From Verrucomicrobiales bacterium (GTDB taxonomy: Bacteria > Verrucomicrobiota > Verrucomicrobiia > Verrucomicrobiales > SLCJ01), in assembly GCA_024636835.1 (NCBI GenBank), contig JAGXGH010000113.1, forward strand, positions 1 to 64,000: a stretch of DNA of 64,000 bases, read 5' to 3'. Shown here piece after piece: positions 15,242 to 34,301 of this stretch (positions are counted from its first letter, which is position 1; every line of letters starts with the position of its first letter). The notes beneath the pieces are model-generated. The model was not told the DNA's origin, did no database searches, and saw only the letters and a program-made list of their open reading frames with translations. Position numbers and translations under genes: made by a program.

Positions 15242-15268
15242 CTTCCCGTCTCGGGAAGTGGTTTTTTT
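15242..15268 (+). terminator. Rho-independent terminator
   Basis: CTTCCCG-TCT-CGGGAAG (15242-15258) followed by TGG and seven T. It ends the PEP-CTERM gene. Confidence 0.9.
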
Positions 15269-15392
15269 ATGCAACTTTCGCGTGAAATAAGAGTTTCATG
15301 CCTACATCAAGTTTTTTGGTGAATTGCCTATGATAAGGAGGTAGAAATAGTCGTCTTAGTCATGCATGGCATCTCGGTGCTTTAAATTCATC

Positions 15393-17030: not shown

Positions 17031-20000
17031 ATGACGATCTACGATAAAAAATCGGGATTCGCACTCATAGCCACGCTCTCCATCATGCTGTTGATCGTGC
17101 TGCTGTTGGTGGCAATGCTGTCTCTCGCGACCTCTACTACACGCTCTCAAGAGAATGGTAGGGATCTTGCCGAAGCGCAGGCCAATGCCAAACTTGCGCT
17201 CAAATTGGCGATTGGCGAGCTTCAGAAACAGATGGGGCCGGATCAGCGGATATCGGCCAACGGTGACATTCTCGGAGATCCGACAAGCACCACTACCTCC
17301 GTTATTCACCCCAATTGGACCGGGGTATGGGACTCGTGGATTGCCGGTGATCTGGCAAGCGCCTCAGTCAATCCAGATTACCCGAGCGGAGAAAGTCATA
17401 ACCAGACCATTGGAGCCCAGCCCGATGACGCGATGCATCCGGACTACGCAAACAAAGACAAGCATTTCCGGAGGTGGTTGCTTTCCCTCGATCCAACGGA
17501 CGCAGAAGCCATTACATCGGCCAATAGTCTGGCGCTGAACGGTGAGATTGTCCCTAGTAAAAGTGCTACCGCGATTCGACTCGTCGGTGGCGGATCCCTT
17601 GGCAATGATGCCGGTAGAGAGAGCGATTATGTCAGCGCGCGCCTTCTTGATGTCAGCCCCCCTTCAGAAGCAACGAAAGTTACCGGTCGCTATGGCTGGT
17701 GGGTTGGTGATGAGAGCCAAAAGTCGCGCATCATGGCCGATTCCTACAATGATGGAACCGGTCTGTCTGACGCGGACAGGATTTTCCGCGCGCAAGCTCC
17801 TGGCTCCATGGGTAGCAGGCAAATCCCAGGTATGGAGGGAATCGTTGATGAACAACAACTCGACGATCTGCCTTCGTTCAAAACCCTCGATCTCGTGGAG
17901 GTTGTTCCGCAACCAGGCGATAACGAGCCAGCCATTTCCCAACGGAATTTTCACGATGCCACCATTCGCAGTTACGGTGTTCTTGCAGACGTTCGCGAGG
18001 GCGGGTTGAAACGCGATCTTTCCACAATCCTTGAGCGTGATATCCAGCTTGCAGACAGTGGAGACGAGTTCATGCTGTATCGCTTTAGTGACGCTGACGA
18101 GCGTGTGCCCATCCAGGATTTAGCCGCTTATTATCAACTTTACCGGGATGAAGCTTTCAGCGCCGCAGGCAGGGGAGGAATCAAATACTCGTCCGGCTCA
18201 TTAAGTGGCCGAATTCAAGCGGATGTGCCGGACTACGGCACAACGGACGACAAGTATCTGCGACAGTACACGGCGCTTTACCGCAATCCCGTTCCTGTGA
18301 AGATTCAGTTCGTCCTGGGTATCGGCGCAAGCCTGATCACCGCTGAAGAGAGAGCCTATGCTAACGCTTATCTTGCCTCCAAGGGGCTCCAGTTGAGAGA
18401 GGAGGATAAATACAAATTATCCCTAGGCGTCAAACCCGTCGTTTCACTGTGGAACCCCAACAACGTTCCACTGGTGATGGATAGTCGTTCCAATCAAGAA
18501 CTGCGAGTGGGCTTTCCTCCGTTTGTCATTCAATGGAAAAAATTTAGAGCGGGCGGAGCTGATTTCTTCAGTAACCATGTGAACTTGAACTACGCCATCA
18601 CCAATGAATCCACCAACGACGGAAGAGCGCGTTATTTGGATCCATTCATCATAAAAATTCAGTACGCACGGACTAACCCCATTGTATTTGAGCCGGGGGA
18701 AATCAAAACCTTCACCGTCGACATTGATCCGATTAACTGGTTGGAAAACGATGGGAAGGCTTCTTTCGGGGACAATTCGCTTTATGATGCCAAGGAGTTC
18801 TTGCCAGATGGTTTTTACGTTACCGCAAAGGTTGCGCCACCGAAAGACGTGGATGTTGTGAAGCTTGAAGGTGGAAGTTATCAGGGCTTCAGGATGGTTT
18901 TCGCAGATGGGGATAAAATAACCTATAATGTCACTCCGGAATCCAAAGACAGTTGGGCGAGAGCGGTAGCCAGAGGCAATGAAATTGTCGGCGGTGGATT
19001 TCAATTTTACCTGAGAGACAGAAATGCGGCATTGAATACCTACAGAAATTACCAATTCATCAGCCGTTTTGGGCAAGACGGAGACAGATATAACCAACAG
19101 ACAACCACGGAATTCAATGCTGAGCTGATACTGGCCGGATTCCCCGATGGGGAACCCATTGACTTCGATTCGGAAACAGATGCGATGCCCGGCGCGTCCG
19201 GTAGTGGCAATATCAAGAGCTTCACTGACAATGGTGCGGCCAAGGGATTGATAGCGTTCACGATGATGCCCGGTAGTGAGCTGAACAATCAATACACTGC
19301 CGGATTTGGTGGCGGTCGTAAAATCATGACCCGCCCGTTTACCCATGGAAGCATTCTCAGCGCTCCGCAAATTGCCGACAACAGTCCGGCAGCTTTGTAC
19401 GAATACGGGTGGGAATGGCAGGTGGAAAAAATCAATGATACTGAGGAAGTTCTTCAGGATGATGGCCAAAGCCGTGGATTTTACGGCGGTGGTTATAATT
19501 TCGGATCGGGCTCCACACACGTGGTTCAGCAATATTTGCCCGTACTGCCTCCAATCTCGATCGCTTCTCTCAGTAGTGCCCATCTTGGAGGCTACAGTTT
19601 GGCAAATAATCCTGTGGCCGGCAGCATTAGCAGAAGAGCTCCGGAAATGGATGATTTTCGACAGATTACGGCCACCGGCCAGGGAGGGCTGGCACCTCAT
19701 ACGCTCCAGGCAATTGGGAACTCTTACGCGCATCCAAACATACCTGCGAATCAGGCATACACCTCGTACACTCGGCGCCTTAACATGAACCTCCCTGCGG
19801 AAGATCAGGAAATCTCGTATGCAGACCACTCCTATCTGGCCAACAAAGCCCTATGGGACGATTACTTCTTCTCCTCGATCTCACCTCAATATGCCGATGT
19901 TCAACTTCAGCAATCGAGTGGTAACAAAACGGCATTCGATGTAGCCCGGGAATTTCTCTTTGATGAAGAATCCTTACCCAACCGACGTATCTCACCTTAT

Positions 20001-20927
20001 CTGGATAATCTTATCAGTGAGGAATTCGATTTGTTGGAGGGGCAGTATGGCGATTATACCGATGGTTTTGCCGATAAGATTGCCTCCCATCTGATGATAA
20101 AAGGGCCGTTCAATGTGAATTCAACCTCTGTCGGGGCATGGAAAGTCCTGCTGACAAGTATGCGCGACAAGGCGGTTGCCTATCTCAATGAAACGAGTGG
20201 GAATCCCGCATCTGCTGCAACTGGAGGGCAGATCCCTGTTGCCCCGGGAATGCTTCCGAATGACGAACCGGTGACGAGCGGCCAAATCACTGCAAGCGCG
20301 AACAACCCTGCCGAACAGTGGACGGCATGGCGCAGTTTATCTGACGCGGAAATTGACCAACTCGCCACTGCCATCGTTTATCAGGTCAAGCAGCGTGGAC
20401 CATTTCTTTCCTTGTCGGAGTTTATCAACCGTCGCCTGGATGCCGTTAACATTGATATGGCTCTTAAGGGCGCACTGCAGGCTGCCATTGATTTTGAGGG
20501 GGATGGCAGCATCCCCGAGGTCACCATCAACTCCGCATTCCGCTCTCCTGAAAGAAGTTTGGATGTCGAAGCTGATAAATTTGCTCCGGGCGAATTTGAA
20601 TTTTCCCAAGCACTGGATGGCCCCGTTGCCTATGGAAGCACCCCGTATCTTGATCAAGCGGATATTCTCCGCCAATTGGGATCAGTTCTTACACCACGCG
20701 GAGACACCTTCGTGATCCGGGCATACGGAGATAAACTGGACGCCCGCGGTAATGTCATCGCGCGTGCTTGGTGCGAAGCGGTCGTTCAACGCACTCCCGA
20801 TTATGTAAACCTAGAGGATGATGAGAATCACTTCGCGCAGGCACGACTGAGCTCTGAAGCCAACAAAGCTTTTGGACGGGAGTTTAAAATCGTCAGCTTT
20901 CGCTGGTTGAAAAAAGATGAAATTTAA
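17031..20927 (+). CDS. Verru_Chthon cassette protein A-like protein, unit 1
   Basis: A 1298-residue protein with a prepilin-like N-terminus: KSGFALIATLSIMLL then IVLLLVAMLSLATSTTR, that is a short basic leader, G|F and a hydrophobic helix, without the usual Glu at +5, as in the minor pseudopilin GspK. An alpha-helical region follows (AEAQANAKLALKLAIGELQ). Landmarks shared with the other two copies are YGWWVGDESQ (about 220), LQAIGNSYAHPNIP (890), GPFNVNSTSV (1025), RGPFLSLSEFINRRL (1120), GDTFVIRAYGD (1222), ARAWCEAVVQR (1243) and the C-terminus SFRWLKKDEI. I associate these with Verru_Chthon cassette protein A. Function is unknown; the pilin-like start suggests assembly at the inner membrane. 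It is followed after 47 bases by a small secreted partner. Confidence 0.8.
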   Translation: MTIYDKKSGFALIATLSIMLLIVLLLVAMLSLATSTTRSQENGRDLAEAQANAKLALKLAIGELQKQMGPDQRISANGDILGDPTSTTTSVIHPNWTGVWDSWIAGDLASASVNPDYPSGESHNQTIGAQPDDAMHPDYANKDKHFRRWLLSLDPTDAEAITSANSLALNGEIVPSKSATAIRLVGGGSLGNDAGRESDYVSARLLDVSPPSEATKVTGRYGWWVGDESQKSRIMADSYNDGTGLSDADRIFRAQAPGSMGSRQIPGMEGIVDEQQLDDLPSFKTLDLVEVVPQPGDNEPAISQRNFHDATIRSYGVLADVREGGLKRDLSTILERDIQLADSGDEFMLYRFSDADERVPIQDLAAYYQLYRDEAFSAAGRGGIKYSSGSLSGRIQADVPDYGTTDDKYLRQYTALYRNPVPVKIQFVLGIGASLITAEERAYANAYLASKGLQLREEDKYKLSLGVKPVVSLWNPNNVPLVMDSRSNQELRVGFPPFVIQWKKFRAGGADFFSNHVNLNYAITNESTNDGRARYLDPFIIKIQYARTNPIVFEPGEIKTFTVDIDPINWLENDGKASFGDNSLYDAKEFLPDGFYVTAKVAPPKDVDVVKLEGGSYQGFRMVFADGDKITYNVTPESKDSWARAVARGNEIVGGGFQFYLRDRNAALNTYRNYQFISRFGQDGDRYNQQTTTEFNAELILAGFPDGEPIDFDSETDAMPGASGSGNIKSFTDNGAAKGLIAFTMMPGSELNNQYTAGFGGGRKIMTRPFTHGSILSAPQIADNSPAALYEYGWEWQVEKINDTEEVLQDDGQSRGFYGGGYNFGSGSTHVVQQYLPVLPPISIASLSSAHLGGYSLANNPVAGSISRRAPEMDDFRQITATGQGGLAPHTLQAIGNSYAHPNIPANQAYTSYTRRLNMNLPAEDQEISYADHSYLANKALWDDYFFSSISPQYADVQLQQSSGNKTAFDVAREFLFDEESLPNRRISPYLDNLISEEFDLLEGQYGDYTDGFADKIASHLMIKGPFNVNSTSVGAWKVLLTSMRDKAVAYLNETSGNPASAATGGQIPVAPGMLPNDEPVTSGQITASANNPAEQWTAWRSLSDAEIDQLATAIVYQVKQRGPFLSLSEFINRRLDAVNIDMALKGALQAAIDFEGDGSIPEVTINSAFRSPERSLDVEADKFAPGEFEFSQALDGPVAYGSTPYLDQADILRQLGSVLTPRGDTFVIRAYGDKLDARGNVIARAWCEAVVQRTPDYVNLEDDENHFAQARLSSEANKAFGREFKIVSFRWLKKDEI

Positions 20928-20974
20928 TAGACTCTCGAACCATGTTGCCAGCGAACCAAAGACCCTCATCATCA

Positions 20975-21679
20975 ATGATCAGAACAACAACCTATAAAAT
21001 GCTACTCAAACTGTTCTGCGGTCTTTTTGTGTGCACCGCTGCTCTCGCACAAGACGAGACGGTCAATCTTTACTTCATCTCTTTTCCCAAAGTGGATGAC
21101 CCTGAGCCGCTGGAACTGCTCATTGGCGAGGAAGAGACGATGGAAGTCGATTTGCCTACCAACCACGTATCAAAGGCATACAGTGTTCCTGCCTTGTCAA
21201 AATGGGTTCTCGGTAAATCATCTATGTCTGATGCGAATGGATTCACATTCAAAACCTTTGGGCAGGTTACCTCGATTAATTCCAAGAGTCAGTTGGTGCT
21301 GGTGCTTAGGTCTGGAAAAGGGGGTGCCGAGGGCTTGGAATTGAAAATATTGGATTACAGCGAAGACGGTTTCGGTGGTGGCGAGTATCTGTTCATGAAT
21401 GCCGCGAAAGTCGATATCGCCGGAGTCGTTGGCGAAGAAAAGTTTGCGATCAAGCCGGGTAACAATTTCTTGCTGGCTCCCAAAGCAACAAAAACAAGAG
21501 GTAATCGGGGGTACTCATACGCGAGGTTTTACTTTCGGAATAAAGACGAGGCCCAAGGCTTTTTCTCTGCCACTTGGAGATTGAACGATCGGTCGCGAAG
21601 TTTGGTGTTTTTCTACCATGACCCGAACACCAAACAACTTCGCCTGCACATCACACGGAGCTTTTTGAGTGCCGAATAA
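20975..21679 (+). CDS. Secreted partner protein, unit 1 (uncharacterised family)
   Basis: A 234-residue protein with signal peptide MIRTTTYKMLLKLFCGLFVC then TAALAQ; the in-frame alternatives are ATG 20942 and ATG 20999. The segment DPEPLELLIGEEETMEVDLPT is matched by RPEPIELVVGEGKTIEVQTP in the 26063 product. The C-terminal part (GGEYLFMNAAK, EEKFAIKPGNN, FFSATWRLNDRSRSLVFFYH) aligns with the products at 26063, 32838 and 33636. One member follows every large cassette gene, so the two products probably work together. I do not recognise a named family. Small all-beta periplasmic or outer-surface protein by composition. Confidence 0.75.
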   Translation: MIRTTTYKMLLKLFCGLFVCTAALAQDETVNLYFISFPKVDDPEPLELLIGEEETMEVDLPTNHVSKAYSVPALSKWVLGKSSMSDANGFTFKTFGQVTSINSKSQLVLVLRSGKGGAEGLELKILDYSEDGFGGGEYLFMNAAKVDIAGVVGEEKFAIKPGNNFLLAPKATKTRGNRGYSYARFYFRNKDEAQGFFSATWRLNDRSRSLVFFYHDPNTKQLRLHITRSFLSAE

Positions 21680-21688
21680 TGATTTGAG

Positions 21689-22020
21689 GTGATATCTGAT
21701 GCACCTCTTGATGTAAACGGCTATTTCAAGGCTGAATTCATGTGTCAGCCAGAGGATAGTGGCGAGTTTCTGCCCATAATGAAAAAGTCATGGTGGTGCG
21801 ATACCGGTAGCAGCAACTTGGGCATCATTATGGATTCTGGCGCAAGGTTACCGAAAATTCACATGCTAAGAGATCGTCGCGCCCCTGAATCTATCGATTA
21901 AGAGTGATTCCCCAATCTTGGTATGGATATGACGCGTTTGAGCTGGCATTTGCTTGATCGTGAGCTACTTGTGCGCGGAGAACAGTTCTATTTTTTCGGC
22001 GGTGGCATGAGGTCAACATG
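21689..22020 (+). pseudogene. Relic of an unknown gene, copy 1
   Basis: The frame reads VNGYFKAEFMCQPEDSGEFL, PIMKKSWWCDTGSSNLGII, and the DNA then continues with a TTGATCGTGAGCTACTTGTG stretch. The same order occurs at 34385-34620 (GYFNAKFLCQPDGEGWFL, TLMNKSWWFDTASNHL; TTGATCGCGAGCTACTCGTG). Frames shift and stops occur, so these are remains of a duplicated gene. The open part 21689-21901 alone could encode 70 residues. Family not recognised. Confidence 0.5.
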
Positions 22021-22035
22021 CCTAGACTAAATAAA

Positions 22036-22055
22036 CCTGTCCGAGGAGGGACAGG
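22036..22055. promoter_or_regulatory. Operator upstream of unit 2
   Basis: A perfect CCTGTCC-N6-GGACAGG. It ends 14 bases before the first TACAT box, exactly as at 29093-29112. Its centre is about 62 bases upstream of the transcription start I would infer from TATATT at 22098, a position typical of activator sites. Confidence 0.75.
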
Positions 22056-22069
22056 TTGCTTTTCATAAT

Positions 22070-22103
22070 TACATTGTAGATACATTGCTTGTACGCGTAT
22101 ATT
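22070..22103 (+). promoter_or_regulatory. TACAT-box promoter element of unit 2
   Basis: TACAT boxes at 22070 and 22081, 11 bases apart, within TACATTGTAGATACATTG. They are followed by TATATT (22098-22103) as a likely -10 element. Confidence 0.6.
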
Positions 22104-22137
22104 AAGAGCTCAGCTTATCGCTAAAGTTCTTGAAGAT

Positions 22138-25100
22138 ATGACTCATACGACACAGAAATCAGGATTTGCGCTCATTGCCACGCTCTCCATCATGTTGTTG
22201 ATCGTGCTTCTGTTAGTGGCGATGCTTACTCTCTCGACCACCACAACACGCTCCCAAGCAGATGGTAAGGCGCAGGCTGAAGCGCAGGCAAATGCCAGAC
22301 TGGCGCTCAAATTGGCGATTGGTGATCTTCAGAAGCAGATGGGGCCGGATCAACGCATTTCGGCCAATGGGGCGATTGTTTCTGAAACCGACGTCCGGCA
22401 TCCTCATTGGACAGGGGTTTGGGATTCCTGGGTGACAGATCCTAGCTCTGCACCAGTCAATTCTAATTATCCCGGAGCTGCGAGTGCCCACCAAACCATT
22501 GGCTCACAGCCAGACAACGCGATGCGCCCGGAATATGATCAAAAGGATAAATATTTCCGTGCTTGGCTGCTTTCACTGAATGAAGACGATCTGAATTTGG
22601 ATCAGGCCATGAGCGTAAAACTTCCCATGGACCTTGCTCTCGATGGGAAGATCATCCCATCCATGGCCGATACCGCCATTCGACTTCTCGGTGAGGGTTC
22701 CTTGGGCAGTAATGCCAATAGTGAGAACTACGTCAGCGCGCGCCTAATCTCCGTAGCAGACCCAGTGGATTCAACAAAAACCGTCGGACGCTACGGCTGG
22801 TGGGTTGGTGATGAGAGCCAGAAGGCGAACATCATGGACGACCCCTACCAAAACAGTCGCGCGAACAGTCTGGCCGAACGCCTCAATCGCCAGCAGGCAC
22901 CCGCATCCATGGGGAACTCCGAGATCAGTGGCCTCGAAAACGTTGCCGACCAATCGTCATTTGAATTCATTCCCACACGCGGCTCCTTGCCATTAATCAA
23001 TGGAGTGACCGATCAGGTGACGGAGCAGTTTCATGATATCACGACCAAGTCTCGCGGGATACTCGTCGACGTCCGTGAGGGCGGCTTGAAGCGCGACCTC
23101 TCGACCATTCTGGAGCGAGCGATCGACCCGGAAGATGTTTACAATTTGACCAATGTCGCGGATTTCAAACGAGCCTCTTCCTTAAAAAGCGGCGGTGACG
23201 ATTTCATGCTCTATCGCTTCGACGACATGGTGAACAGCATCAGTTCAACCGGCGAGGCCAATGTTCCGATTCAAGATCTTGCAGCATACTACCAACTCTA
23301 TGACCGCTATCGTTCCGGGTCGATGGGAGGCATCCAATATACATCTAGGGAATCGTCCCCTCCAAACAATATGCTGAACAACGGCATCATGGTCAGCAAT
23401 ACGGATTACGGGGATACCCAGACCGACTTGGACGATTACCTCCGCCAATACACGGCGCTCTATCGCAATCCTGCCTTAGTAAAAATTGAGATCATCCTCA
23501 GTTATGTCACCGAGCCTATCTTCCCAGTTCCCACCGATCCAAACGCAGATAAATATAGACTTAGAATCGGAGTCACCCCTGCGATGACTTTCTGGAACCC
23601 TAACAATGTTCCTGTGGTAATGAACTTCGGCGATCCTGATGTGGCATCGCTCATGGCGCGCGAAACTCCCATTCCGCTGAAGATTACATTCAAAAAATCC
23701 GACAGCTATTCCGGACCGCCAACCTATACCCAGGATATCCAGTTCAACAAGGTAACGAACACCCAACAGGGCGAGCTCTACACGCTATTTGTGTCTGGTA
23801 ATTACTCTACGGTTTTTGAGCCGGGAGAAAGCAAGGTTTTCGCGCTCCGCTTCGCATCAGGCACCGATAGTAACTCAGCGAGTAATTACGTCGATTTCAT
23901 GCTGCGCGGTCGGGGAAACAACAGATACTCCGAAGTCTTCGTTGACGAACTCGAAATGGTGCCGGGCTGGAACCCTGAAAAATTCATCCGCCCAAAAAGC
24001 GATACCGGCGGGGCTGGCAGAGGAGATCACACCGTGTTTACGTTCAATGAAGATGACTTCATTTCCGCATCTATCGATCAGGGGAATTACAATACCTTCA
24101 GTGCCGATTTCACACAGAAGTCCAGACATGGCAGAAACTCTCCCGGGGTCAAATGGCACTTTAGATCCTTCGGCATTAGGGGGCGCTCAAATGCCGACGC
24201 TGCCTACAGGAGTAATTTCGTATTTCAGGGCTTCCCGCTCAATGGAGTGAAACAGATTTCAGATACCACAGTCCGAACGATAGAACTACCTGCGAAGAGT
24301 GCTGGTGAGCTGATTGATGCCATGGGATCGAAATTCAATCCGCGAGACGATCTGCCGCAGCCCTTTTTCTATTATGGTATCAAAGCCGCGACTGAAACCC
24401 ATGAGTCGCAAAACTTTGGGGGCGCGGATGATGGCGCGGGCCGCCGCTTCCCCGCTCGTCCGTTCACTCACTCCACGCCAATGGTTCCCGCGTTTCTCGA
24501 CAATACCGATCCAGCCTCGCTTTACAACTACGGCTGGAACTGGTTCTTCCTACCTCTCGACAACCTTCTGGATGCCCCAGTCGAAATCTCGGGTAGCAAT
24601 AGTGGTTATTACGGAGGCGGATATACCGCAGAAAACGGCGTCACAAACATCGTCCAGCAACAATTGCCCGTGACGCCACCCCTTTCAATCGCCACACTGA
24701 GCCATGCTCATCTCGGAGGCTTCAGTCTGGCCACGGAAGCGCCTGCAGCCGGATACACAGGGCTGAAAAACCCTGTGGGCACAGAGGCATTTCGTCGACT
24801 CACGGCCATTGGATTTAATGGCTTGGCCCCTCATACTCTGCAGGCAATCGGAAACTCCTACGCCCATCCCAACATTCCAGCGGATAAAGCGTATTTCACG
24901 TGGCTACGCCAGTTCGCGGGAAGCGCTACGACGGAACAGCCATTCGCTGACCACTCCTATCTCGCCAACAAAGCCCTGTGGGACGAGTTTTTCTTCTCAT
25001 CCATCTCCCCCAAAGTTACCGATGCGAAGGTGTTTTCAGGTGGCAAGACGGTAAAAGCAGTGGCGGAAGATTTCTTCTTTAATGAACAAGCTTTGCCGAA

Positions 25101-26028
25101 CCCGCGGATCGTGCCCTTTCTCACTGGCTTCGACAACAATCAGTTGGATGAGCTCTTTACCTCCTACGACCAGCATAAGGACGGATTCGCCGACAAGATC
25201 GCTGCCCATCTGATGGTAGAGGGACCATTTAATATCAATTCCACCTCCGTAGCTGCATGGAAGGCACTCTTTTCCAGTCTCAAAGAGCACGATGTTACCT
25301 ACCTGGATGCCAAGTCGGCATTAGTGGTCGGCACGAACCTCGATTTTCAAAAAGTCGACGGAGTGCCTATCCCTGGCGGTCCTCTTCCGAATGGCAAGTC
25401 CTACCAGGGCAGCTCTACCGATCCCAGTGACAGCGAACAATGGACGGGTTTCCGTGAACTTACCGATGGTGAAATTGAAGAACTGGCAACTGCCATGGTT
25501 AAGCAGGTGAAGCTTCGTGGTCCATTCCTGTCACTTTCTGACTTTATCAACCGTCGACTTGACGGAAGTTCCTCAGCAAAAGAACTCGCACTGAAAGGTG
25601 CGTTACAGGCAGCGATTGATGATCCCGACTGTTCCATCAACGCAGGGTTTCGGAGCGATTTGCGCAAATTCACAAATCGTGAGGAGTCATTCGTCAATGC
25701 CCAGTTCCCCGAGGCGATGGAAGGGCCGATAGCTTATGGCAGTGCCGCCTACGTTGATCAGGCGGATATCTTGCGCAGCTTCCCTGCCCAGCTTACACCG
25801 AGGGGCGACACTTTCGTGATCCGAGCCTATGGAGATTCCCTCGATGACGCAGGGAATGTCGTGGGGCGTGCTTGGTGCGAAGCGGTGGTTCAGCGACTTC
25901 CTGAATACCTTGATCCGACGGATGACTCCGAAGTCTCGCAGGCGGATCTCAATTCGTTATCAAACCAAAATTTCGGTCGCAGGCTTGCCATTGTGAAGTT
26001 CAGGTGGCTCAATCCATCGGAAATCTAA
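22138..26028 (+). CDS. Verru_Chthon cassette protein A-like protein, unit 2
   Basis: A 1296-residue paralogue of the 17031 product and clearly its closest relative along the whole length: WTGVWDSWV, YGWWVGDESQKA (about 218), DVREGGLKRDLSTILERAI, LRQYTALYRNPALVKIE, LQAIGNSYAHPNIP (898), GPFNINSTSV (1027), RGPFLSLSDFINRRL (1127), GDTFVIRAYGD and C-terminal FRWLNPSEI. The prepilin-like start TQKSGFALIATLSIMLLIVL predicts inner-membrane insertion and cleavage after Gly. ATG 22138 lies about 50 bases after the TACAT boxes, matching the other units. Upstream sit an operator palindrome and the TACAT element; a secreted partner gene follows after 34 bases. Function unknown. Confidence 0.8.
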   Translation: MTHTTQKSGFALIATLSIMLLIVLLLVAMLTLSTTTTRSQADGKAQAEAQANARLALKLAIGDLQKQMGPDQRISANGAIVSETDVRHPHWTGVWDSWVTDPSSAPVNSNYPGAASAHQTIGSQPDNAMRPEYDQKDKYFRAWLLSLNEDDLNLDQAMSVKLPMDLALDGKIIPSMADTAIRLLGEGSLGSNANSENYVSARLISVADPVDSTKTVGRYGWWVGDESQKANIMDDPYQNSRANSLAERLNRQQAPASMGNSEISGLENVADQSSFEFIPTRGSLPLINGVTDQVTEQFHDITTKSRGILVDVREGGLKRDLSTILERAIDPEDVYNLTNVADFKRASSLKSGGDDFMLYRFDDMVNSISSTGEANVPIQDLAAYYQLYDRYRSGSMGGIQYTSRESSPPNNMLNNGIMVSNTDYGDTQTDLDDYLRQYTALYRNPALVKIEIILSYVTEPIFPVPTDPNADKYRLRIGVTPAMTFWNPNNVPVVMNFGDPDVASLMARETPIPLKITFKKSDSYSGPPTYTQDIQFNKVTNTQQGELYTLFVSGNYSTVFEPGESKVFALRFASGTDSNSASNYVDFMLRGRGNNRYSEVFVDELEMVPGWNPEKFIRPKSDTGGAGRGDHTVFTFNEDDFISASIDQGNYNTFSADFTQKSRHGRNSPGVKWHFRSFGIRGRSNADAAYRSNFVFQGFPLNGVKQISDTTVRTIELPAKSAGELIDAMGSKFNPRDDLPQPFFYYGIKAATETHESQNFGGADDGAGRRFPARPFTHSTPMVPAFLDNTDPASLYNYGWNWFFLPLDNLLDAPVEISGSNSGYYGGGYTAENGVTNIVQQQLPVTPPLSIATLSHAHLGGFSLATEAPAAGYTGLKNPVGTEAFRRLTAIGFNGLAPHTLQAIGNSYAHPNIPADKAYFTWLRQFAGSATTEQPFADHSYLANKALWDEFFFSSISPKVTDAKVFSGGKTVKAVAEDFFFNEQALPNPRIVPFLTGFDNNQLDELFTSYDQHKDGFADKIAAHLMVEGPFNINSTSVAAWKALFSSLKEHDVTYLDAKSALVVGTNLDFQKVDGVPIPGGPLPNGKSYQGSSTDPSDSEQWTGFRELTDGEIEELATAMVKQVKLRGPFLSLSDFINRRLDGSSSAKELALKGALQAAIDDPDCSINAGFRSDLRKFTNREESFVNAQFPEAMEGPIAYGSAAYVDQADILRSFPAQLTPRGDTFVIRAYGDSLDDAGNVVGRAWCEAVVQRLPEYLDPTDDSEVSQADLNSLSNQNFGRRLAIVKFRWLNPSEI

Positions 26029-26062
26029 GATCGTTCAAGTCTTCCCCATCCTCCTATCACTC

Positions 26063-26770
26063 ATGCAAACCATTCGGGTATCTCTCATCGCATTCGCTAT
26101 CGCATCCCTTGTGACAGAGGATGTATCCGCTCAGGATAAAAAAATATCGCTTCAATTTCTGGCAATCCCGAAAAAAACGCGACCCGAACCCATCGAATTG
26201 GTTGTTGGCGAGGGCAAAACCATTGAAGTGCAAACTCCGGGAAACGAGCTTTCTCCAGACTACGAAGTGCCTTCGCTCTCTACAATTGTGGTGGGCAAAA
26301 CGATTCTAAACGAGGAAGGAGAACCGGAATTTCTAGTCTACGGTAAGGCCAACTCGATTGGGACCTCAAAGCAGATCATCCTGCTGCTTCGCAAAGGGAG
26401 GGAAAACAGCGACGGCTTCATCGTTCTGCCTATTAATGGAGAGCTGACAAATTTCACCGGGGGAAGCTATCTTTTCTTCAATGCCTCCAACCTGAATGTG
26501 GGTGGAGTCATCGGAGACAAGAAATTCGCCCTTAAGCCTGGCCAGCGAAGCCTACTTAAGCCTGCCCCCGATCATGACAACGGTATCTGCCAAGTTACGC
26601 TCTCGTATCAACGCGATGAGGATTGGAAAACGTTCAAAGACACCCGCTGGCCCACGAACAAAAGATACAGGTCTCTGATATTTTTTCATCGCAGTGTTAA
26701 CAGCGGCCGCCTTACGGTATCCCCTGTTGTTGAGATGCTGCCCTATCAGGAAGCGAACACGGAGGGGTGA
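26063..26770 (+). CDS. Secreted partner protein, unit 2 (uncharacterised family)
   Basis: A 235-residue protein with signal peptide MQTIRVSLIAFAIASLVTED then VSAQ. It is the homologue of the 20975 product: RPEPIELVVGEGKTIEVQTP, GGSYLFFNASNLNVGGVIGD then KKFALKPGQ, DTRWPTNKRYRSLIFFH. It sits directly behind the second large cassette gene and its stop overlaps the first upstream in-frame ATG of the next frame, so the three genes are probably one transcript. No named family or catalytic motif recognised. Confidence 0.75.
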   Translation: MQTIRVSLIAFAIASLVTEDVSAQDKKISLQFLAIPKKTRPEPIELVVGEGKTIEVQTPGNELSPDYEVPSLSTIVVGKTILNEEGEPEFLVYGKANSIGTSKQIILLLRKGRENSDGFIVLPINGELTNFTGGSYLFFNASNLNVGGVIGDKKFALKPGQRSLLKPAPDHDNGICQVTLSYQRDEDWKTFKDTRWPTNKRYRSLIFFHRSVNSGRLTVSPVVEMLPYQEANTEG

Positions 26771-26853
26771 TGCCTTGTGAAGCCTCGACTAATTTATCCT
26801 TTTCAATACATCTAGAATACCCAAAAATCGACCAACCTGCCCCCTGTCAACTC

Positions 26854-28890
26854 ATGAGACGATACGAAACATTTTCCCAACTACGCATGGTGCTGGTCCT
26901 TGCGGCAACGCTCGCGCTCTTCTGTAACCAAGCATATGCGGGTAGAATCTTCTACGAGAGCTTTGAGAGTCCTGAGAACGCGACCGGGGCGACTGACCCT
27001 GTTGGTTGGACCGAAGGAGGAGGACATCCAAGCTACCGCCGTGCGGCTAATGAAAGTGGTCAGAATTGGTCGACCCCCTACGGCGAGCAGGGCATGTCGA
27101 CGTACACTAGTGGCATAGGACTTAAAAGTCTCGGATATTTGGCTGAAACGGCCGGCGAATACGTCTTGAAATTCAATGTGACAAGTGCCAACCCCAAGGC
27201 CGAATACCGCGCCGAACTGTCTACACAAGAAGAGATCTTTGGCAATCTCCAACCACCGGTCACCGTCGCATTTACCGCTGGGGATAGCGATGGTAGCAAG
27301 GACATGTCGTTTACGGGTGAACTCCGCTGGAGATATGAATACGACCCAGCGGTGAACTTTCTTCCCACATTATTGCAGATACGACTGATGCATGATCCGG
27401 ATTACTCTACTTGGCGTAGCGCTCCGATCTGGGACAACGTTTCCGTCGACTTCATCCCCGATGTCGACACAGAGGGGCCGACCTTGGTGGACATTGCGGA
27501 TGATAGGAACGGTGGCACGGTGGTGGGCACGGGTTCACTCGTGACTTACACGGTGACCTTCAACGAACCCATGGAGGCCTCAACCGTGACTGCCACCGAC
27601 TTTGAAAATGCAGGTTCTTCGACGGCAACCATCACATCGGTCACCACGACCGCCGATGATGCCGTTTTCCTGGTAGGAGTTACTCCAACGGGCGGAGGCA
27701 CCCTGCGCCTGGGAATTGTGAATGGCACCGATCTCAAAGATACGGTGGGTAATTCCATGGATGATTTTTCGGCGATTCAGGACAACGTGACATTCACCGT
27801 GGAAGCAGGCACTCCGATCCTTCAGCCCATCGACATCGTCGATGACAGGGGAGGGAGTTCCGCAGCGGAGAACACTCTGGTGACCTATACACTGACCTTC
27901 AACAAGGACATGGACGATTCCACCGTGCAAGTGGCCGACTTCGGCAATGCTGGCACGGCTCCAATTACCATCGGAACGATCACTGAAACCTCTCCCGGGG
28001 TCTTCACCGTGGAGGTCACCCCAACCAATTCCGGTACCCTTCAGTTCAGGATCAATCCCGGGATCGACATCAGAGCCGCGGACGGCGGACAATTGAACAC
28101 CAGTTCAGAGATCGCCGACGACACGACGATTATCGTGGACTCCGATCCGCCTACTCTAACCGACATCATCGACGACGCGGGAGGCAGCCCGGTAGCTGTC
28201 GGCGCTTTGTTGACCTACGATGTATTCTTCAGCGAGGACATGGACGCTTCCACCGTGGACGCTTCCGACTTCGGCAACGCCGTTACCACCGGCAACGCAA
28301 CATACACCATCGACTCGGTCGAAGAGGCTTCACCCGGAGTCTTCCGTCTTGAATTGACGACGACCGGACCCGGTAGCATTCAACTGCAAATCAACTCCGG
28401 CGCTGCTCTTGCCGACGTTTTGGGCAACACCTTGGTCACGACATCAGCTATTCTTGACGACGCGACGATCACCGTGGGAACCGATCCTTATGAGAGCTGG
28501 TCTGGAGGAGAACTCTTTGATGACGATCTCAACCAGGATGGCATGGCCAACGGTATGGCTTGGTTGCTGGGAGCCACAGGTCCTAACGTGAACACAGCCG
28601 GAATTCAGCCGACCATAAGTGCGGACGATGCAGACTACGTGATCTATTACTACCGTCGTAGTGATGAAGCCTTTGCTGCGGGAGCAGTGGCCAAAGTCCA
28701 ATACTCTCAGAACCTGGGCGGCTGGGATGACGCCTCCATAGGCAACGTTTCTCAGCAGGGCGCATTAGTCATCGTCAACGTTCACGACGACTTGATCGAC
28801 ACCGGAATCGATCAAGTAGAGGTGAAAATTCATCGCGATCTAATCACTGGCGATCATTTCTTCCTGAAACTCGACGTCACCCTGCCTTGA
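26854..28890 (+). CDS. Exported protein with three Ig-like (SbsA-type) repeats
   Basis: A 678-residue protein. ATG 26854 gives the leader MRRYETFSQLRMVLVLAATL then ALFCNQAYA; the open frame extends to 26767, but that start would bury the signal peptide. An N-terminal beta-jellyroll-like domain (about 30-210) is followed by three tandem repeats of roughly 110 residues. Each has the pattern DIxDDxGG, LVTYTVTFxxxMDxSTVxxxDFxNAG and ending DDxTxTV, as in the Ig-like domains of bacterial surface proteins. The C-terminal 130 residues (DLNQDGMANGMAWLLGA, FFLKLDVTLP) are a tail I know from verrucomicrobial exported proteins. It has no PEP-CTERM signal. Being downstream of unit 2, it is probably co-expressed with it; surface adhesion or a scaffold role is inference. 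Confidence 0.78.
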   Translation: MRRYETFSQLRMVLVLAATLALFCNQAYAGRIFYESFESPENATGATDPVGWTEGGGHPSYRRAANESGQNWSTPYGEQGMSTYTSGIGLKSLGYLAETAGEYVLKFNVTSANPKAEYRAELSTQEEIFGNLQPPVTVAFTAGDSDGSKDMSFTGELRWRYEYDPAVNFLPTLLQIRLMHDPDYSTWRSAPIWDNVSVDFIPDVDTEGPTLVDIADDRNGGTVVGTGSLVTYTVTFNEPMEASTVTATDFENAGSSTATITSVTTTADDAVFLVGVTPTGGGTLRLGIVNGTDLKDTVGNSMDDFSAIQDNVTFTVEAGTPILQPIDIVDDRGGSSAAENTLVTYTLTFNKDMDDSTVQVADFGNAGTAPITIGTITETSPGVFTVEVTPTNSGTLQFRINPGIDIRAADGGQLNTSSEIADDTTIIVDSDPPTLTDIIDDAGGSPVAVGALLTYDVFFSEDMDASTVDASDFGNAVTTGNATYTIDSVEEASPGVFRLELTTTGPGSIQLQINSGAALADVLGNTLVTTSAILDDATITVGTDPYESWSGGELFDDDLNQDGMANGMAWLLGATGPNVNTAGIQPTISADDADYVIYYYRRSDEAFAAGAVAKVQYSQNLGGWDDASIGNVSQQGALVIVNVHDDLIDTGIDQVEVKIHRDLITGDHFFLKLDVTLP

Positions 28891-29092
28891 TACGGTTTAG
28901 CCTCTGGATCAACCTTGCAGAGTGGCTTTAGAGTCTCAAAAACCTTATATTTGGGGTGAAATGCTGGCATCCTACGGGGCACACACTGGTTGACCTGTAG
29001 TGGGCGTTCGGCTGATCTTGAAGTGATTTTGCCTGCGGCAATCTCGCCTGCGTTTCTCGGTCATTCTGTCAGAAATAGTTCAGGTTTCTCTT
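28891..29092. other. Intergenic region before unit 3
   Basis: I see no gene in this stretch. It ends at the operator and promoter element of unit 3. Confidence 0.6.
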
Positions 29093-29112
29093 CCTGTCCC
29101 ATTTTGGACAGG
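29093..29112. promoter_or_regulatory. Operator upstream of unit 3
   Basis: A perfect CCTGTCC-N6-GGACAGG ending 14 bases before the first TACAT box and 81 bases before the start codon, the same geometry as unit 2. Confidence 0.75.
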
Positions 29113-29126
29113 ATGCGCATAAAAAA

Positions 29127-29158
29127 TACATAGTATTTACATTGCGTGAGCGTATATA
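29127..29158 (+). promoter_or_regulatory. TACAT-box promoter element of unit 3
   Basis: TACAT boxes at 29127 and 29138, 11 bases apart (TACATAGTATTTACATTG), then TATATA at 29153-29158 as a likely -10. Confidence 0.6.
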
Positions 29159-29193
29159 GAGTTGTCAGCACACAGCTGTATTCGAATAAATAT

Positions 29194-32100
29194 ATGATGT
29201 ACACTACTCGAAAATCAGGATTTGCCCTTATTGCCACGCTCTCCATCATGTTGTTGATCGTGCTGCTCTTGGTGGCGATGCTGTCTCTTTCGACCAGCAC
29301 CACGCGCTCTCAAGAGAATGGTAGGGATCTTGCCGAAGCGCAGGCCAATGCCAAACTTGCGCTTAAACTGGCGATTGGCGAGCTTCAGAAACAGATGGGG
29401 CCGGATCAGCGGATAAGCGCGCGCGGCCTGACACTGGGCAGACACCAGTCAGTTGATGTAACCTTGAATACAAACAGCGCAAGAGCTTGGTGGGTAGGTG
29501 CCGCTTCCAGCGATGTGAATGAAACGATCGGTTCTGACAACCAGCCGGTCGTATGGTTGGTTTCCGGATTGAACCCAGCCGCCTCCTCGAAAGAACAGAT
29601 TGCGGCTACTTCTCCTTTTGAAACAAGAGAAGTCATCATGTTTGGGGTAAATAGTATCGATTTGACTCTTACCGGAGGCGAACCAATTTCCGCAGGAATT
29701 GTTCCCGTTTTTGATAGGGAAGGCAAAAATACCGGCTCTTATGCGTACTTTGTCGATGACAACGGAATGAAAGCACAGTTGGCCGCCAGCCATACTGAAG
29801 TGGTGAATGAAGATGAAACGAACGAGCGTCCGGGTGGGACAGTGATTCCCGGTTCATACGATCTGAGTATTCTTGATGGGATGAGTGTGTTGACCGGCAC
29901 AGCCGTCAGTGATTACTCGAAGCTGATTTCCTTTAACAACTTGGCGCTATTGGGTGGAGGAGCCCAAATTTCAAAAAACAAGCGGATGAGTTACACAACC
30001 CAGTCGCTTGGAGTGCTCGCAGATGTTAAAAAAGGCGGTCTTAAAAAGGATCTTACCATTGCCTTTGAGAATCACGAAATCGACCCTGACGCAGCCTATC
30101 ATCCGGAGGGCGGCAACTATCCCAATTGGCCGGTTTATACGGTTTTTGAAAACACTCTCGGAAAGGATTATAATGCGAGCGTAAGACGAAGTGATAACCC
30201 GGCACAAGATGATGACTGGGGCGATTATCTGGTCGTCGATGAGTCGAAGCGGTCTGAATTCGGCGCCAACGGTTATATTCATTGGGCGATGTTCCGTGAC
30301 TACTACAATATGAAGCGCTTTATCCGCCGCGCCTCTAACGCTAATAAAGCTGCGAATGGAGCAATGGACTATCTGGACCCTATCGTTCTTCATAACACCC
30401 TCTTTAGCTTCATGGGCGGAACTAAGTCCTTCGGAAACGGACGTCTTCCGCCACATGAGATGGGGCCGTATGTAGGAGGCTCTAGCTTCAAAATGGGTTC
30501 AGGTAGGAAAGAAGGCATACCCTACGGCAACTACCGGACATGGCCGAACATAGGAAATAGGGGGGACAAGGAGTTTCTTGAATATTATAAACATAGCCCG
30601 ATTCTTCCGATTATGTCGAAGCTCCAAATGAATGTCTGGCTGGAACAGGGCCAAATTCCACCCGAGGGAGATCCGTCGTATGATGCGTCCATTGTTGACG
30701 CTGTTGAAACAAATTACCAATTCTATCTTTCTTACTACAATCCATTTAATATAGGATTGAGGTATTGGGACCCTAACCAAGCAAGGTCCTTTAGTGCTGG
30801 CAACATGCCGCTTGCCGTTTTTTACATACCCGAGGCCGAAATTGATTTTAAACCCATTTCTAATTACACGTATACATATAAGGGCTGGGACTCAATACAG
30901 ACAGAGAGTCCATCGCTTCAAAACCGGGGATACGGAACGAGAACTGCGCCCGTGTATGTTGGCCCCGGACGCGCCCTAACATTAGGTATTACAAAAGATG
31001 TTGAAGCTGCGCGGGTTGTGATCGAAAAAGCCTTCGACTACAATTTTATAGATAACATTGATAGTAATATTCATAAAAACTACCCTACGAGAAATCCGGT
31101 TCCATCGACACTTGATATGGAAGTGCACTTCAGCGCAGTAACCAATATGATGTTTGGTGTGGCGCAGCAAGGTTCAGGAGGGGGCTACTCAGCTTCTCAA
31201 GTGCATTGGAATGCATTTGCCAGAGAACCAGTCAGAATGGGATCTTATAAGAATTCACCGGGAATTAATATAAACGTTCCTCCTGCAGGTCTCGGTTTTA
31301 ACACAATGGCCAGCCTGGCCTACAAACTCAGGTCAACCACGGAAGGTGATAGTAATTCAGTCCGTCCGTTACTCGATGCAAATATTCGCGCATTCTTTCT
31401 CAGCCCAGCCTGGGACTCGCCATTGGGTCTGGATACGTCTGCCGCTTATATCATCGATAACACTCTTGATGTAGGTGATCAGGTTCCCCAAATGTTGGCG
31501 ACGACTGATGGTGAAGGTACTGAGATCGGCTTCACTTACTGGGGGAGTGCTGACTATCCGCCGGACGGTTTTGATAGGGTGATTCTGTTCGATATACCCA
31601 GGAAAGATCTTGTCTCACTGGGTCAACTCCAACATGCCAACGCGGGGCGCTTTAGCTATGAGCCCAGCTACATTGTTGGTAATTCATATGCGAATCCCAG
31701 AATACCTCAGAGTGAATGGAAGGCATCAATTAGTGATACTTACGCCAGTGCGTCGAGGGGATTCGATCCTGACAATAATGCCATTCCCGGGACGTTTGAC
31801 ATTTACGATGCTTCCTACCTGGTTAACGAAGGTCTCTGGGACAGCTTCATTTTTACCACAATCCCCCAAAAAGCCGACAACTACAATGATCCAGATGATC
31901 CTGATCCAACCGAGGAACACTTCGCGGCTCTACTTTCACGAGATGCGTTCCTACCAAACCCAAGGTTAATTCCGTATGAGCCTGCCGGTTCCCGTTTTGA
32001 CAAGGAAACGCTCCAGACTGTTGGCGACGACAACAACATTAGCGCGTTTTATTACAATGCGGGTCATCTGCTCGTGGACGGGGCATTCAACGTCAATTCA

Positions 32101-32820
32101 ACGTCTGTCGATGCCTGGGAAGCCTTTTTATCTGGTACTTACGGCATACCCTTCCTGGAAATGGATGAAACCGGAGCAATTACTGGCTTGGAGCCGGTAG
32201 AGGAGAGAGTCAGATTTCCGCGGGTTCATTCGGTATTCGGTGAGCCTTTCGAGACAGGTAGCCCGACCCCGGAGGGATACTGGACAGGTTTTCGGGCTTT
32301 GACGTCAGACGAAATCCGCGAATTGGCGGTTGAAATCGTCGACCAGATCAAGGAACGAGGTCCGTTCTTGACGCTTGGAGAATTCATCAATCGCAAGCTG
32401 GAGACCGGAGAGCACGGCGAGAAGGGCGCGTTGCAGGCAGCTCTGGATAAAACGGTGAATAAGAATCCATCGTCTTTATACAGTGCGTCTGCCAATCATT
32501 CCGCGTTGCCCAATGGTGAGAACCAGTCAGCGGGATTTCCGGGCCAACTCTTGCAAGGCGATCTACTGCAAGCGCTTTCCCCGATGATGACTGTGCGATC
32601 CGACACCTTCACGATCCGCGCCTATGGTGATTCAATAAAGTCGTCCGATGGCAAATTGCTCGCCAGAGCCTGGTGCGAGGCGGTCGTCCAGCGTTTACCA
32701 GACCCTGTAAGTCATGACCCTGGAAAAAAATACTTGGAAGAACTTGCGAAACCCAGCAGTCCGTTTGGTCGAAATTTTCGCGTAATTTCTTTCCGATGGT
32801 TGAGTGAAGACGAGATCTAG
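29194..32820 (+). CDS. Verru_Chthon cassette protein A-like protein, unit 3
   Basis: A 1208-residue protein with the same prepilin-like start (RKSGFALIATLSIMLLIVLL) and the same first 90 residues as unit 1, nearly identical at DNA level. The body is strongly diverged: WWVGAASSD replaces YGWWVGDESQ and the middle 600 residues show little likeness. The C-terminal landmarks return: IVGNSYANPRIP (about 826), GAFNVNSTSVDAWEAFL (961), RGPFLTLGEFINRKL (1055), FTIRAYGDS (1137), ARAWCEAVVQRLP and SFRWLSEDEI. ATG 29194 (or 29197) is chosen over the TTG or GTG options upstream because it keeps the 50-base spacing from the TACAT boxes seen in units 1 and 2. Function unknown. Confidence 0.8.
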   Translation: MMYTTRKSGFALIATLSIMLLIVLLLVAMLSLSTSTTRSQENGRDLAEAQANAKLALKLAIGELQKQMGPDQRISARGLTLGRHQSVDVTLNTNSARAWWVGAASSDVNETIGSDNQPVVWLVSGLNPAASSKEQIAATSPFETREVIMFGVNSIDLTLTGGEPISAGIVPVFDREGKNTGSYAYFVDDNGMKAQLAASHTEVVNEDETNERPGGTVIPGSYDLSILDGMSVLTGTAVSDYSKLISFNNLALLGGGAQISKNKRMSYTTQSLGVLADVKKGGLKKDLTIAFENHEIDPDAAYHPEGGNYPNWPVYTVFENTLGKDYNASVRRSDNPAQDDDWGDYLVVDESKRSEFGANGYIHWAMFRDYYNMKRFIRRASNANKAANGAMDYLDPIVLHNTLFSFMGGTKSFGNGRLPPHEMGPYVGGSSFKMGSGRKEGIPYGNYRTWPNIGNRGDKEFLEYYKHSPILPIMSKLQMNVWLEQGQIPPEGDPSYDASIVDAVETNYQFYLSYYNPFNIGLRYWDPNQARSFSAGNMPLAVFYIPEAEIDFKPISNYTYTYKGWDSIQTESPSLQNRGYGTRTAPVYVGPGRALTLGITKDVEAARVVIEKAFDYNFIDNIDSNIHKNYPTRNPVPSTLDMEVHFSAVTNMMFGVAQQGSGGGYSASQVHWNAFAREPVRMGSYKNSPGININVPPAGLGFNTMASLAYKLRSTTEGDSNSVRPLLDANIRAFFLSPAWDSPLGLDTSAAYIIDNTLDVGDQVPQMLATTDGEGTEIGFTYWGSADYPPDGFDRVILFDIPRKDLVSLGQLQHANAGRFSYEPSYIVGNSYANPRIPQSEWKASISDTYASASRGFDPDNNAIPGTFDIYDASYLVNEGLWDSFIFTTIPQKADNYNDPDDPDPTEEHFAALLSRDAFLPNPRLIPYEPAGSRFDKETLQTVGDDNNISAFYYNAGHLLVDGAFNVNSTSVDAWEAFLSGTYGIPFLEMDETGAITGLEPVEERVRFPRVHSVFGEPFETGSPTPEGYWTGFRALTSDEIRELAVEIVDQIKERGPFLTLGEFINRKLETGEHGEKGALQAALDKTVNKNPSSLYSASANHSALPNGENQSAGFPGQLLQGDLLQALSPMMTVRSDTFTIRAYGDSIKSSDGKLLARAWCEAVVQRLPDPVSHDPGKKYLEELAKPSSPFGRNFRVISFRWLSEDEI

Positions 32821-32837
32821 CTAGCAAACAAGAACGA

Positions 32838-33527
32838 ATGAGAACACTGCTATTTTTACTACCGATTTGTGTGCAATTATTGGGTGGAACCCTTATTGGG
32901 CAAACCATTGGAGTCAGAACTCTGGCTTTAGATGAGAGTGCTACAGAGATCGAAAGATACGTAAAGACGGCTGATGGTTACAAATTACTGGTTTTCTTAA
33001 TCCGCCATCCCGGAGAGTTAGTCGATACCAACGTTGACGAAAGGAACTTACCGATTTATAAAAAAATGATTCAACCGAGTGAGGAGCCGAGTTTTCAAGT
33101 CGTCCAACAGCTCAAGTTGCCCTACGGTGCTAAAAGCGTTCTTATTCTCGGTTGGAGTGTTTCCGGAGAGGAGCGCTATATGGTAGTGGACGATAAATTT
33201 CTAGATGCTAGTTATAACGATTGGCTGATGATTAATACGGTGTCAAAAACAGTTGGCTTGCGAATCGGTAAAGACGAAAAGCCTTTTATTATTAAACCGA
33301 ATAGTATTCAGATCTGTAAAGTTACTACACCTGGAGGTAAAGGTGCTGCAGTCCTTGGGCGCACCAAATTGGATGATGAAATGGAAACGTTTTACTCAAC
33401 CTACTGGCCAATCAGAGAGGGTGAAAGATCGATTGTGATTTTTGTGGAGCAAGGAGAGCGTGTCAAGGTTAGGAAAATCAGCGATGCCTTACTCAAAAAA
33501 AGTGAAAATGATGAAGGAGTCAGATAG
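32838..33527 (+). CDS. Secreted partner protein, unit 3a (uncharacterised family)
   Basis: A 229-residue protein with signal peptide MRTLLFLLPICVQLLGGTLI followed by GQ, starting 17 bases after the large cassette gene. The C-terminal half (NDWLMINTVSK, DEKPFIIKPNS, FYSTYWPIREGERSIVIFVEQ) aligns with the partner proteins of units 1 and 2. The N-terminal half is closest to the next gene (TIGVRTLALDE). Likely periplasmic or surface-located; no enzyme motif seen. Confidence 0.75.
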   Translation: MRTLLFLLPICVQLLGGTLIGQTIGVRTLALDESATEIERYVKTADGYKLLVFLIRHPGELVDTNVDERNLPIYKKMIQPSEEPSFQVVQQLKLPYGAKSVLILGWSVSGEERYMVVDDKFLDASYNDWLMINTVSKTVGLRIGKDEKPFIIKPNSIQICKVTTPGGKGAAVLGRTKLDDEMETFYSTYWPIREGERSIVIFVEQGERVKVRKISDALLKKSENDEGVR

Positions 33528-33635
33528 GCCATCACAGTCTCAGGTCGATTTATCAGCAAATGAAAATTAGATGTGTTGCCTTTCGGTCGTTGTTATTGGT
33601 TGTAAATAAAATCCCAGCAGGCTAAGATCAAAATT

Positions 33636-34301
33636 ATGAAGAGTCTATTACTATTAATACCCGTTTGTGCGCTTTTTCTAGGCAAGTCTTTAATGGGGCA
33701 AACCATAGGAGTAAGATTACTGGCGTTAGACGAAAATGCAAATATAGATGAACGGTATCTAAAGGCTCAAGACGGTTACGAATTGTTAACCTTTTCAAGT
33801 AGACAAGCGAGTCAGTTAATCGATACTTATGTAGATGAGGGTAAGATGCTTCTGTATGAAAAAACGCCGTCAGAGAAAGAAACCCCTTCTTACCGTGTTG
33901 CCGATAAGATCACCTTGCCAGCAGGTGCTAAAAACATCTTAATTCTTGCTTTGGGAGGCGGTGACGAAAATGCCTATCTGGCAATCGATGATAATTTTCT
34001 AGATGCTAATTATAACACTTGGATGGTGATTAATACGGCGTCTAAGCCTGTTAGTATTCAGGTTGGTAAGGTGGAAAAGCCTTTGATAATAGAAGTGAAT
34101 TGCAGTAAAATCTATAAAGTAGATGCCGCTGCAGGCGCGGGGACTGCGGTCTTGGCGCAGGCTAAATGGAAAGGAGAGATGAAGACGTTTTATTCCACTT
34201 ACTGGGCGATAAGAGAGGGCGAAAGGCCGATCGTGATTTTTGTGGAAAAAGAAAATCGAATCGTGGTGAAAAAAATCAGCGACAAGCTACCCGATAAATA
34301 A
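33636..34301 (+). CDS. Secreted partner protein, unit 3b (uncharacterised family)
   Basis: A 221-residue tandem duplicate of the preceding gene product. It shares TIGVRLLALDENA, LIDTYVDEG, LPAGAKNILIL, DNFLDANYNTWMVINTASKP and FYSTYWAIREGERPIVIFVE, with signal peptide MKSLLLLIPVCALFLGKSLM. Unit 3 therefore has two partners where units 1 and 2 have one. It lies 108 bases downstream of its duplicate and the gap shows no terminator. The local sequence is more AT-rich than the operon that follows. Confidence 0.75.
   Translation: MKSLLLLIPVCALFLGKSLMGQTIGVRLLALDENANIDERYLKAQDGYELLTFSSRQASQLIDTYVDEGKMLLYEKTPSEKETPSYRVADKITLPAGAKNILILALGGGDENAYLAIDDNFLDANYNTWMVINTASKPVSIQVGKVEKPLIIEVNCSKIYKVDAAAGAGTAVLAQAKWKGEMKTFYSTYWAIREGERPIVIFVEKENRIVVKKISDKLPDK

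Follow-up and report, generated by a model that had tools for sequence, protein, structure and literature searches.

Gene content of the window

The window, i.e., the whole stretch of 64,000 nucleotides that was analysed, is contig 28 of the 5.5-Mb genome of a Verrucomicrobiales bacterium. Positions 17031-34301 hold three copies of a unit made of the gene of a giant protein and that of an exported partner. The seven open reading frames (three giants and four partners) are confirmed at the positions given in a preliminary description of this DNA; all are on the + strand.

Giant 1 (17031-20927, 1298 aa) begins with the leader MTIYDKKSG^FALIATL, followed by a long N-terminal helix and a large variable head; its conserved C-terminal region contains GPFNVNSTS, RGPFLSLSEFINRR, RGDTFVIRAYG and FGREFKIVSFRWL. 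Partner 1 (20942-21679, 245 aa) has a Sec signal and, by homology, two Ig-like domains. Giant 2 (22138-26028, 1296 aa) is 49% identical to giant 1, and partner 2 (26063-26770, 235 aa) is 33% identical to partner 1. Giant 3 (29194-32820, about 1209 aa, in the ORF 29146-32820) likely starts at the Met at 29194; the cleavage site would then be preceded by a short leader, MMYTTRKSG. Giant 3 is the only giant of the window with two partner genes on its 3' side, i.e., partner 3a (32838-33527, 229 aa) and, as a tandem second partner, partner 3b (33636-34301, 221 aa, 52% identical to 3a). The gap between giant and partner is 14 to 34 bp in all three units.

A 9-bp perfect hairpin with a T-rich tail (22034-22057, + strand) lies between units 1 and 2. 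It is a possible terminator, for which it gives weak evidence since a hairpin/T-tail scan of the region finds such sites no commoner than in shuffles. The 3' end of partner 2 is overlapped by a 707-aa ORF (26767-28890) for a secreted protein in which Ig-like (Big_5-like) domains are repeated. This ORF is possibly co-transcribed with the unit in the window and is no regular third gene of the units at other loci.

Just 5' of unit 1 (14370-16847) are encoded a PEP-CTERM protein and a SASA-family carbohydrate esterase (sialic acid-specific acetylesterase). Two adjacent and similar-looking giant proteins of another kind, TPR-like (39015-46835, 2606 aa; 47012-54424, 2470 aa), are flanked by TPR/YbgF-like proteins and a TolQ/ExbB homologue (34824-39014 and 54798-55439). 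From its sequence, the stretch 34824-55439 resembles a periplasmic TPR system energised by TolQ.

Pairing of giants and partners in the source genome

A search of the source genome with TIGR02600, the Verru_Chthon cassette A model, detects the giant N-terminus in 12 full-size giants and, besides these, in one truncated fragment and in a relative of 954 aa. Profile searches and the reading of the contigs place a partner directly downstream of each of these 12 giants, thus the pairing is more than chance. The converse search, with the four partners of the window, leads to partner genes on giant-bearing contigs and to almost nothing elsewhere in the genome. On contig 67 two units are divergent.

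The preliminary description had proposed that each cassette A-like giant is followed by the gene of a secreted protein of about 230 residues, in a two-gene arrangement without the B, C and D genes. This is borne out for 12/12 giants: partners of 221-245 aa are found in the window, and no B/C/D prepilin gene adjoins any giant of the source genome. B/C/D genes paired with these copies, which the same description had named as an argument against its proposal, were looked for in this genome and none was found.

At locus L037 (10671-11339, - strand) a 222-aa N-terminal remnant of a giant lies directly upstream of an intact unit, which is evidence of duplication and decay. Behind the unit of locus L036 (contig 78, near 8925-9041) is the remnant of a second partner, matching the tandem second partner 33636-34301. 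Tandem partners are also seen at loci L086, L117, L096, L108 and L114.

Properties of the giants

Over their length, the three giants of the window have pairwise identities of 33-49%; through the prepilin helix, 24 residues are the same in all three. Their N-terminus is nearly invariant (S-G^FALIATLSIMLLIVLLLVAML) and the C-terminal region is conserved; the approximately 700 residues between these ends are highly variable. Among the 91 giants assessed (see below), a script located the cleavage site in 72. In these 72 the residue at -1 is always Gly or Ala, the residue at +1 is Phe in 60, and Glu is never found at +5. In most of the other giants the same signature can be seen by eye, under another pattern; a few more are cut off by the end of a contig. 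The signature (G/A at -1, mostly F at +1) is kept among giants down to about 20-30% identity. The giants thus have the N-terminus of a GspK-type prepilin: (i) a short basic leader; (ii) a G^F site; (iii) a hydrophobic helix; (iv) no Glu5. The absence of Glu5 is a mark of GspK-type tip subunits.

The AF2 model of mature giant 3 (67 rows; pLDDT 83, pTM 0.89) predicts a single helix of 58 residues (residues 2-59) followed by a large globular head. A fold search with the whole giant against PDB gives no significant match, E. coli GspK (3ci0_K) reaching only E=0.32. Matches to beta-barrel toxin folds are at chance level (probability below 0.15) and were dismissed. The profile of the giant family has no match in PDB, and giants have nothing above cut-off in Pfam and NCBIfam.

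The preliminary description had taken the giants for Verru_Chthon cassette A proteins. This identification is not retained: the three giants of the window score 22.7, 26.7 and 24.8 bits with TIGR02600 against a cut-off of 332.3, i.e., about 300 bits short, the match spans only the N-terminal 59 of 1296 positions, and the gene context differs. In profile-profile comparison with Verru_Chthon A the giant N-terminus aligns over 77 columns (E=1.5e-12). In the soluble part one short motif aligns (G-R-Y-A-W-W-x-x-D-E-x-x-K vs G-R-I-A-F-W-T-D-D-E-S-x-K; E=6e-4), and a collinear C-terminal stretch (TTKSNxFxVHYR vs RSDTFxIRAYG; E=0.04) is suggestive of a further likeness.

The comparison with GspK gives a similar picture. 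With NF037980/T2SSK the giants of the window score 16.8-23.8 bits, on the N-terminus only (cut-off 130 bits). The giant N-terminus aligns with the GspK profile over 69 columns (E=9e-7); once the N-terminal 70 residues are removed the value is E=0.03. In the soluble part neither profile nor fold thus reveals a GspK domain or any homology to GspK. Since the likeness to GspK and Verru_Chthon A is N-terminal, with nearly nothing beyond, the giants are best classified, on these alignments, as pilin-like proteins of the GspK/Verru_Chthon A kind that belong to neither family.

Properties of the partners

The preliminary description aligned the four partners of the window through one motif. The literal motif, FYSTYWPIREGERSIVIFV, is present only in the partner 32838-33527; its counterparts are FYSTYWAIREGERPIVIFV in the partner 33636-34301, and FFSATWRLNDRSRSLVFFY and FKDTRWPTNKRYRSLIFFH in the other two. 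The window partners form two sub-types with a mutual identity of only 18-19%. That the four are related does hold by profile: the other matches of their common profile in the genome all adjoin giants, save one borderline (E=0.08), thus they are one family.

A hydrophobic signal core is found in 75 of 77 partners, and a lipobox-like sequence in 3 of the 77. Partners have nothing above cut-off in Pfam and NCBIfam, and a profile search of PDB gives no match. The AF2 model of partner 3a (pLDDT 91.8) predicts two tandem Ig-like beta-sandwich domains. The above motif is a hairpin of the second domain of this model and contains a nearly invariant Arg (residue 197). The closest solved fold is the extracellular Ig-like tandem of PepT2 (TM 0.5-0.6); as judged from the model, this is a likeness of fold only.

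Distribution of the unit

A scan of a genome collection gives 79 loci from numerous Verrucomicrobiota; two of these loci belong to B12222, a Kiritimatiellota genome. With the source genome this makes 91 assessable giants, at which partners were detected with an iterated profile. A partner lies directly downstream of 75 of them. Most gaps are between -24 and +100 bp, the start of the partner often overlapping the stop of the giant; larger overlaps are due to spurious upstream starts.

The 16 giants without a downstream partner are not scattered. On a tree built from the C-termini of the giants they require 6 changes, where shuffled trees lead one to expect 15, and a single group of 24 rows contains 14 of the 16. 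The genome holds partners elsewhere at all 12 such loci that were checked. Two of the 16 are inverted pairs (L095, 4901-5662; L101, 1560-2321, - strand), the partner being right upstream of the giant and divergently transcribed. The genomes of loci L059-L100 contain a class of longer ORFs (about 330-456 aa) matching part of the partner profile only; it is present in most genomes with partnerless giants and, from this partial match, could be the partner of these giants.

The giant profile matches in 64 of 142 relatives. About a dozen of these match by the N-terminus only and probably have true cassette A genes. A recognisable partner is found in 37 of the 142 relatives, and all 37 are also giant genomes (hypergeometric P about 5e-17, kinship uncorrected); the co-occurrence called for in the preliminary description is thus observed. 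Partners without a large neighbour, which would have spoken against it, were not found: in the three relatives where every partner candidate was scored (G001, G129, G137), 5/5 are beside a giant. Genes proper to TIGR02600 are present in 92 of the 142 relatives, in families other than those of the source genome and of Akkermansia-like genomes. They are commonly followed by B/C prepilins (GFSLVE, GFTLVE), and no partner occurs in their 1.5-kb flanks.

Verrucomicrobiota is the phylum of the gut microbe Akkermansia. In Akkermansia-like genomes (genus g3), an ORF of 261-309 aa for an exported protein lies behind three giants. These ORFs are missed by a standard HMM search; in profile-profile comparison they match the partner with E=2.7e-6 over 181 columns, the controls (column shuffles, other profiles) giving E>=0.3. 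Going by this match, they are very diverged members of the partner family.

The neighbourhoods of the units contain no conserved third gene, the flanking genes being heterogeneous. gyrA and GAPDH are recurring neighbours, but they are housekeeping genes and were rejected as members of the unit; the units that they flank are probably orthologous loci. The unit takes about 4.5 kb per copy. Many Verrucomicrobiota have several to many copies of it, and ten or more in one genome are frequent.

Secretion machinery

The prepilin peptidase and type II/IV secretion genes that the preliminary description suggested looking for do exist elsewhere in the source genome. Contig C142 contains a complete type II secretion system (T2SS), i.e., gspE, F, G, H, I, J, K, L, M and D with an adjacent prepilin peptidase. 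The genes were named from their order and N-terminal sequence, and a family search backs the peptidase, secretin, GspE, GspH-like and GspK-like genes. In all, the source genome has 4 secretins and several T2SS/T4P ATPases. A prepilin peptidase is found in all giant genomes but one (G002, an 82%-complete assembly), and secretins are found in 15/15 giant-bearing relatives tested. In Akkermansia-like genomes giants are present with no match to the GspK of the source genome; the classic set is thus dispensable in places.

It must be added that contig 44 (C44; locus L039, 3541-10004) contains a separate D-B-C-A-like prepilin cluster followed by the gene of a 518-aa secreted protein. Its A-like protein (954 aa) is below all cut-offs, and the gene order and sequences indicate a diverged Verru_Chthon-like cassette. 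A partner-like domain in the 518-aa protein (E=0.045) was not accepted.

Co-divergence of giants and partners

Distances between giants (middle part) and distances between partners are strongly correlated, both for the 12 paralogues of the source genome (Mantel r 0.88) and for 74 pairs (Mantel r 0.78), each at the permutation limit. The partial correlation between variable middle and partner, with the C-terminal region held constant, is 0.53; the converse (conserved C-terminal region and partner, given the middle) is 0.21. The pair is still kept where partners have 17% mean identity. This co-divergence shows joint inheritance. It is consistent with a physical match of head and partner and is no proof of contact, being also expected from mere joint duplication of the pair.

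Proposed function and alternatives

It is proposed, with a confidence not far short of even, that the giant acts as a tip pseudopilin of excessive size, with the partner bound to its head as a cognate exported ligand or cargo. The giant would be inserted in the inner membrane and its leader removed by the prepilin peptidase of the genome. It would cap a pseudopilus or a type IV filament built by T2SS/T4P machinery encoded elsewhere, since it has no Glu5 and its head (about 1100 residues) is too bulky for the filament body. Its kinship with GspK would extend beyond the N-terminus. The partner would be exported by Sec, fold in the periplasm and bind its own giant at the variable head; it would be displayed on the tip, or pushed out with it. 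The displayed complex would most likely serve for adhesion or substrate capture, and a genome with many paralogous units would have a set of exchangeable tips at its disposal. The full proposal, i.e., a pseudopilus display or secretion system of Verrucomicrobiota with exchangeable giant tips, their own Ig-like partners and pair-specific extracellular targets, is put forward tentatively and is rather doubtful as a whole. Several observations count against the giant as tip pseudopilin: its likeness to GspK is limited to the N-terminus, the whole giant has no significant fold match, it is 3-4 times larger than known GspK, co-divergence has the other possible cause given above, and some giants have no adjacent partner.

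In the strongest rival, the giant stays in the periplasm, anchored in the membrane, and never enters a filament; the pilin-like helix is just an anchor and the partner is a periplasmic chaperone or lid stabilising the head. Significant pilin likeness restricted to the N-terminus, a head far exceeding known pseudopilins in size, and a small partner with a Sec signal and rarely a lipobox-like sequence (3/77) all agree with it, and strong pair-wise co-divergence suits a dedicated chaperone. However, the prepilin cleavage signature kept at about 20-30% identity is needless for a plain anchor, nearly all giant genomes encode a prepilin peptidase, and the giants have a motif in common with Verru_Chthon A, whose gene adjoins those of true prepilins; a mere anchor is considered somewhat unlikely. 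The giant may also replace K in a pseudopilus whose H, I and J come from the T2SS (C142) or from the C44 cluster, the partner being a substrate or an adhesin. The source genome does have complete gspGHIJK and the D-B-C-A-like cluster, the giants are without Glu5, as is GspK, and relatives without the new unit often have TIGR02600 genes with adjoining B/C. Such a replacement is nevertheless judged unlikely, Akkermansia-like genomes having giants and no match to the GspK of the source genome.

Finally, both genes may merely duplicate and travel jointly, without physical interaction: linked genes co-diverge even without contact, and the heterogeneous neighbourhoods suggest a self-contained spreading unit. 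This is very unlikely in view of the maintenance of the pair across deep divergence (partners at 17% mean identity), the near-absence of partners without a giant, and a partner that tracks the variable head more than the C-terminal region (0.53 vs. 0.21).

Whatever their function, two protein families without Pfam/NCBIfam model are defined, one with a confidently predicted fold. Their unit spans much of Verrucomicrobiota, Akkermansia-like genomes included. The giants are set apart from the similar Verru_Chthon cassettes and tied to the T2SS/T4P filament class. Many giant-bearing bacteria are polysaccharide degraders. A directly testable pairing hypothesis follows, i.e., each partner binds its own giant; such pairing could account for the recognition of different surfaces by these bacteria, or for secretion onto them.

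Comparison with known systems

The two-gene unit appears to be undescribed in the searchable literature, and a search of the open-access literature found no paper mentioning the name Verru_Chthon. Like GspK (T2SSK), the giants have a class III-like signal without Glu5 and an N-terminal helix. They differ from it by their size (1200 aa vs. about 300 aa, i.e., 3-4 times larger) and by having no detectable GspK domain; moreover, the source genome has a separate true GspK. Verru_Chthon A is similar in its giant size (1.3-1.8 kaa), occurrence in Verrucomicrobiota in multiple copies, GspK-like N-terminus and one common motif. There, however, the prepilins B and C are downstream, whereas the giants described here have the partner downstream, and the two have largely complementary taxonomic distributions.

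In one Opitutales genome (Verruconatronum; 2026 paper) 67 homologues of a PulG-like pseudopilin have been reported, together with an alginate-induced pseudopilin (PMC13274419). In that case a pilin-like protein of another type appears to have expanded in parallel. A bulky module on a pilin stem, as in the giants, is known for ComZ of Thermus (PMC6561018) and for modular pilins such as PilB of S. sanguinis (PMC8179133), both argued to be located at the tip. The parts of these two papers considered here describe no family of exported partners dedicated to the pilin and encoded beside it, and the heads of these pilins are unrelated to those of the giants as far as detectable.

A minor pilin and its cognate secreted protein are likewise combined in one operon in TcpB-TcpF of Vibrio cholerae, where the secreted protein docks on the pilin (PMC9565799), and in CofB-CofJ, a related pair from enterotoxigenic E. 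coli. There the pilin is of ordinary size and each pilus operon has one pair; here the pilin-like member is giant and the pairs are many and paralogous. The likeness is one of arrangement: as in TcpB-TcpF, the partner gene is adjacent, and its product is exported and co-inherited. A filament tip subunit with its cognate exported protein is an already known kind of pair.
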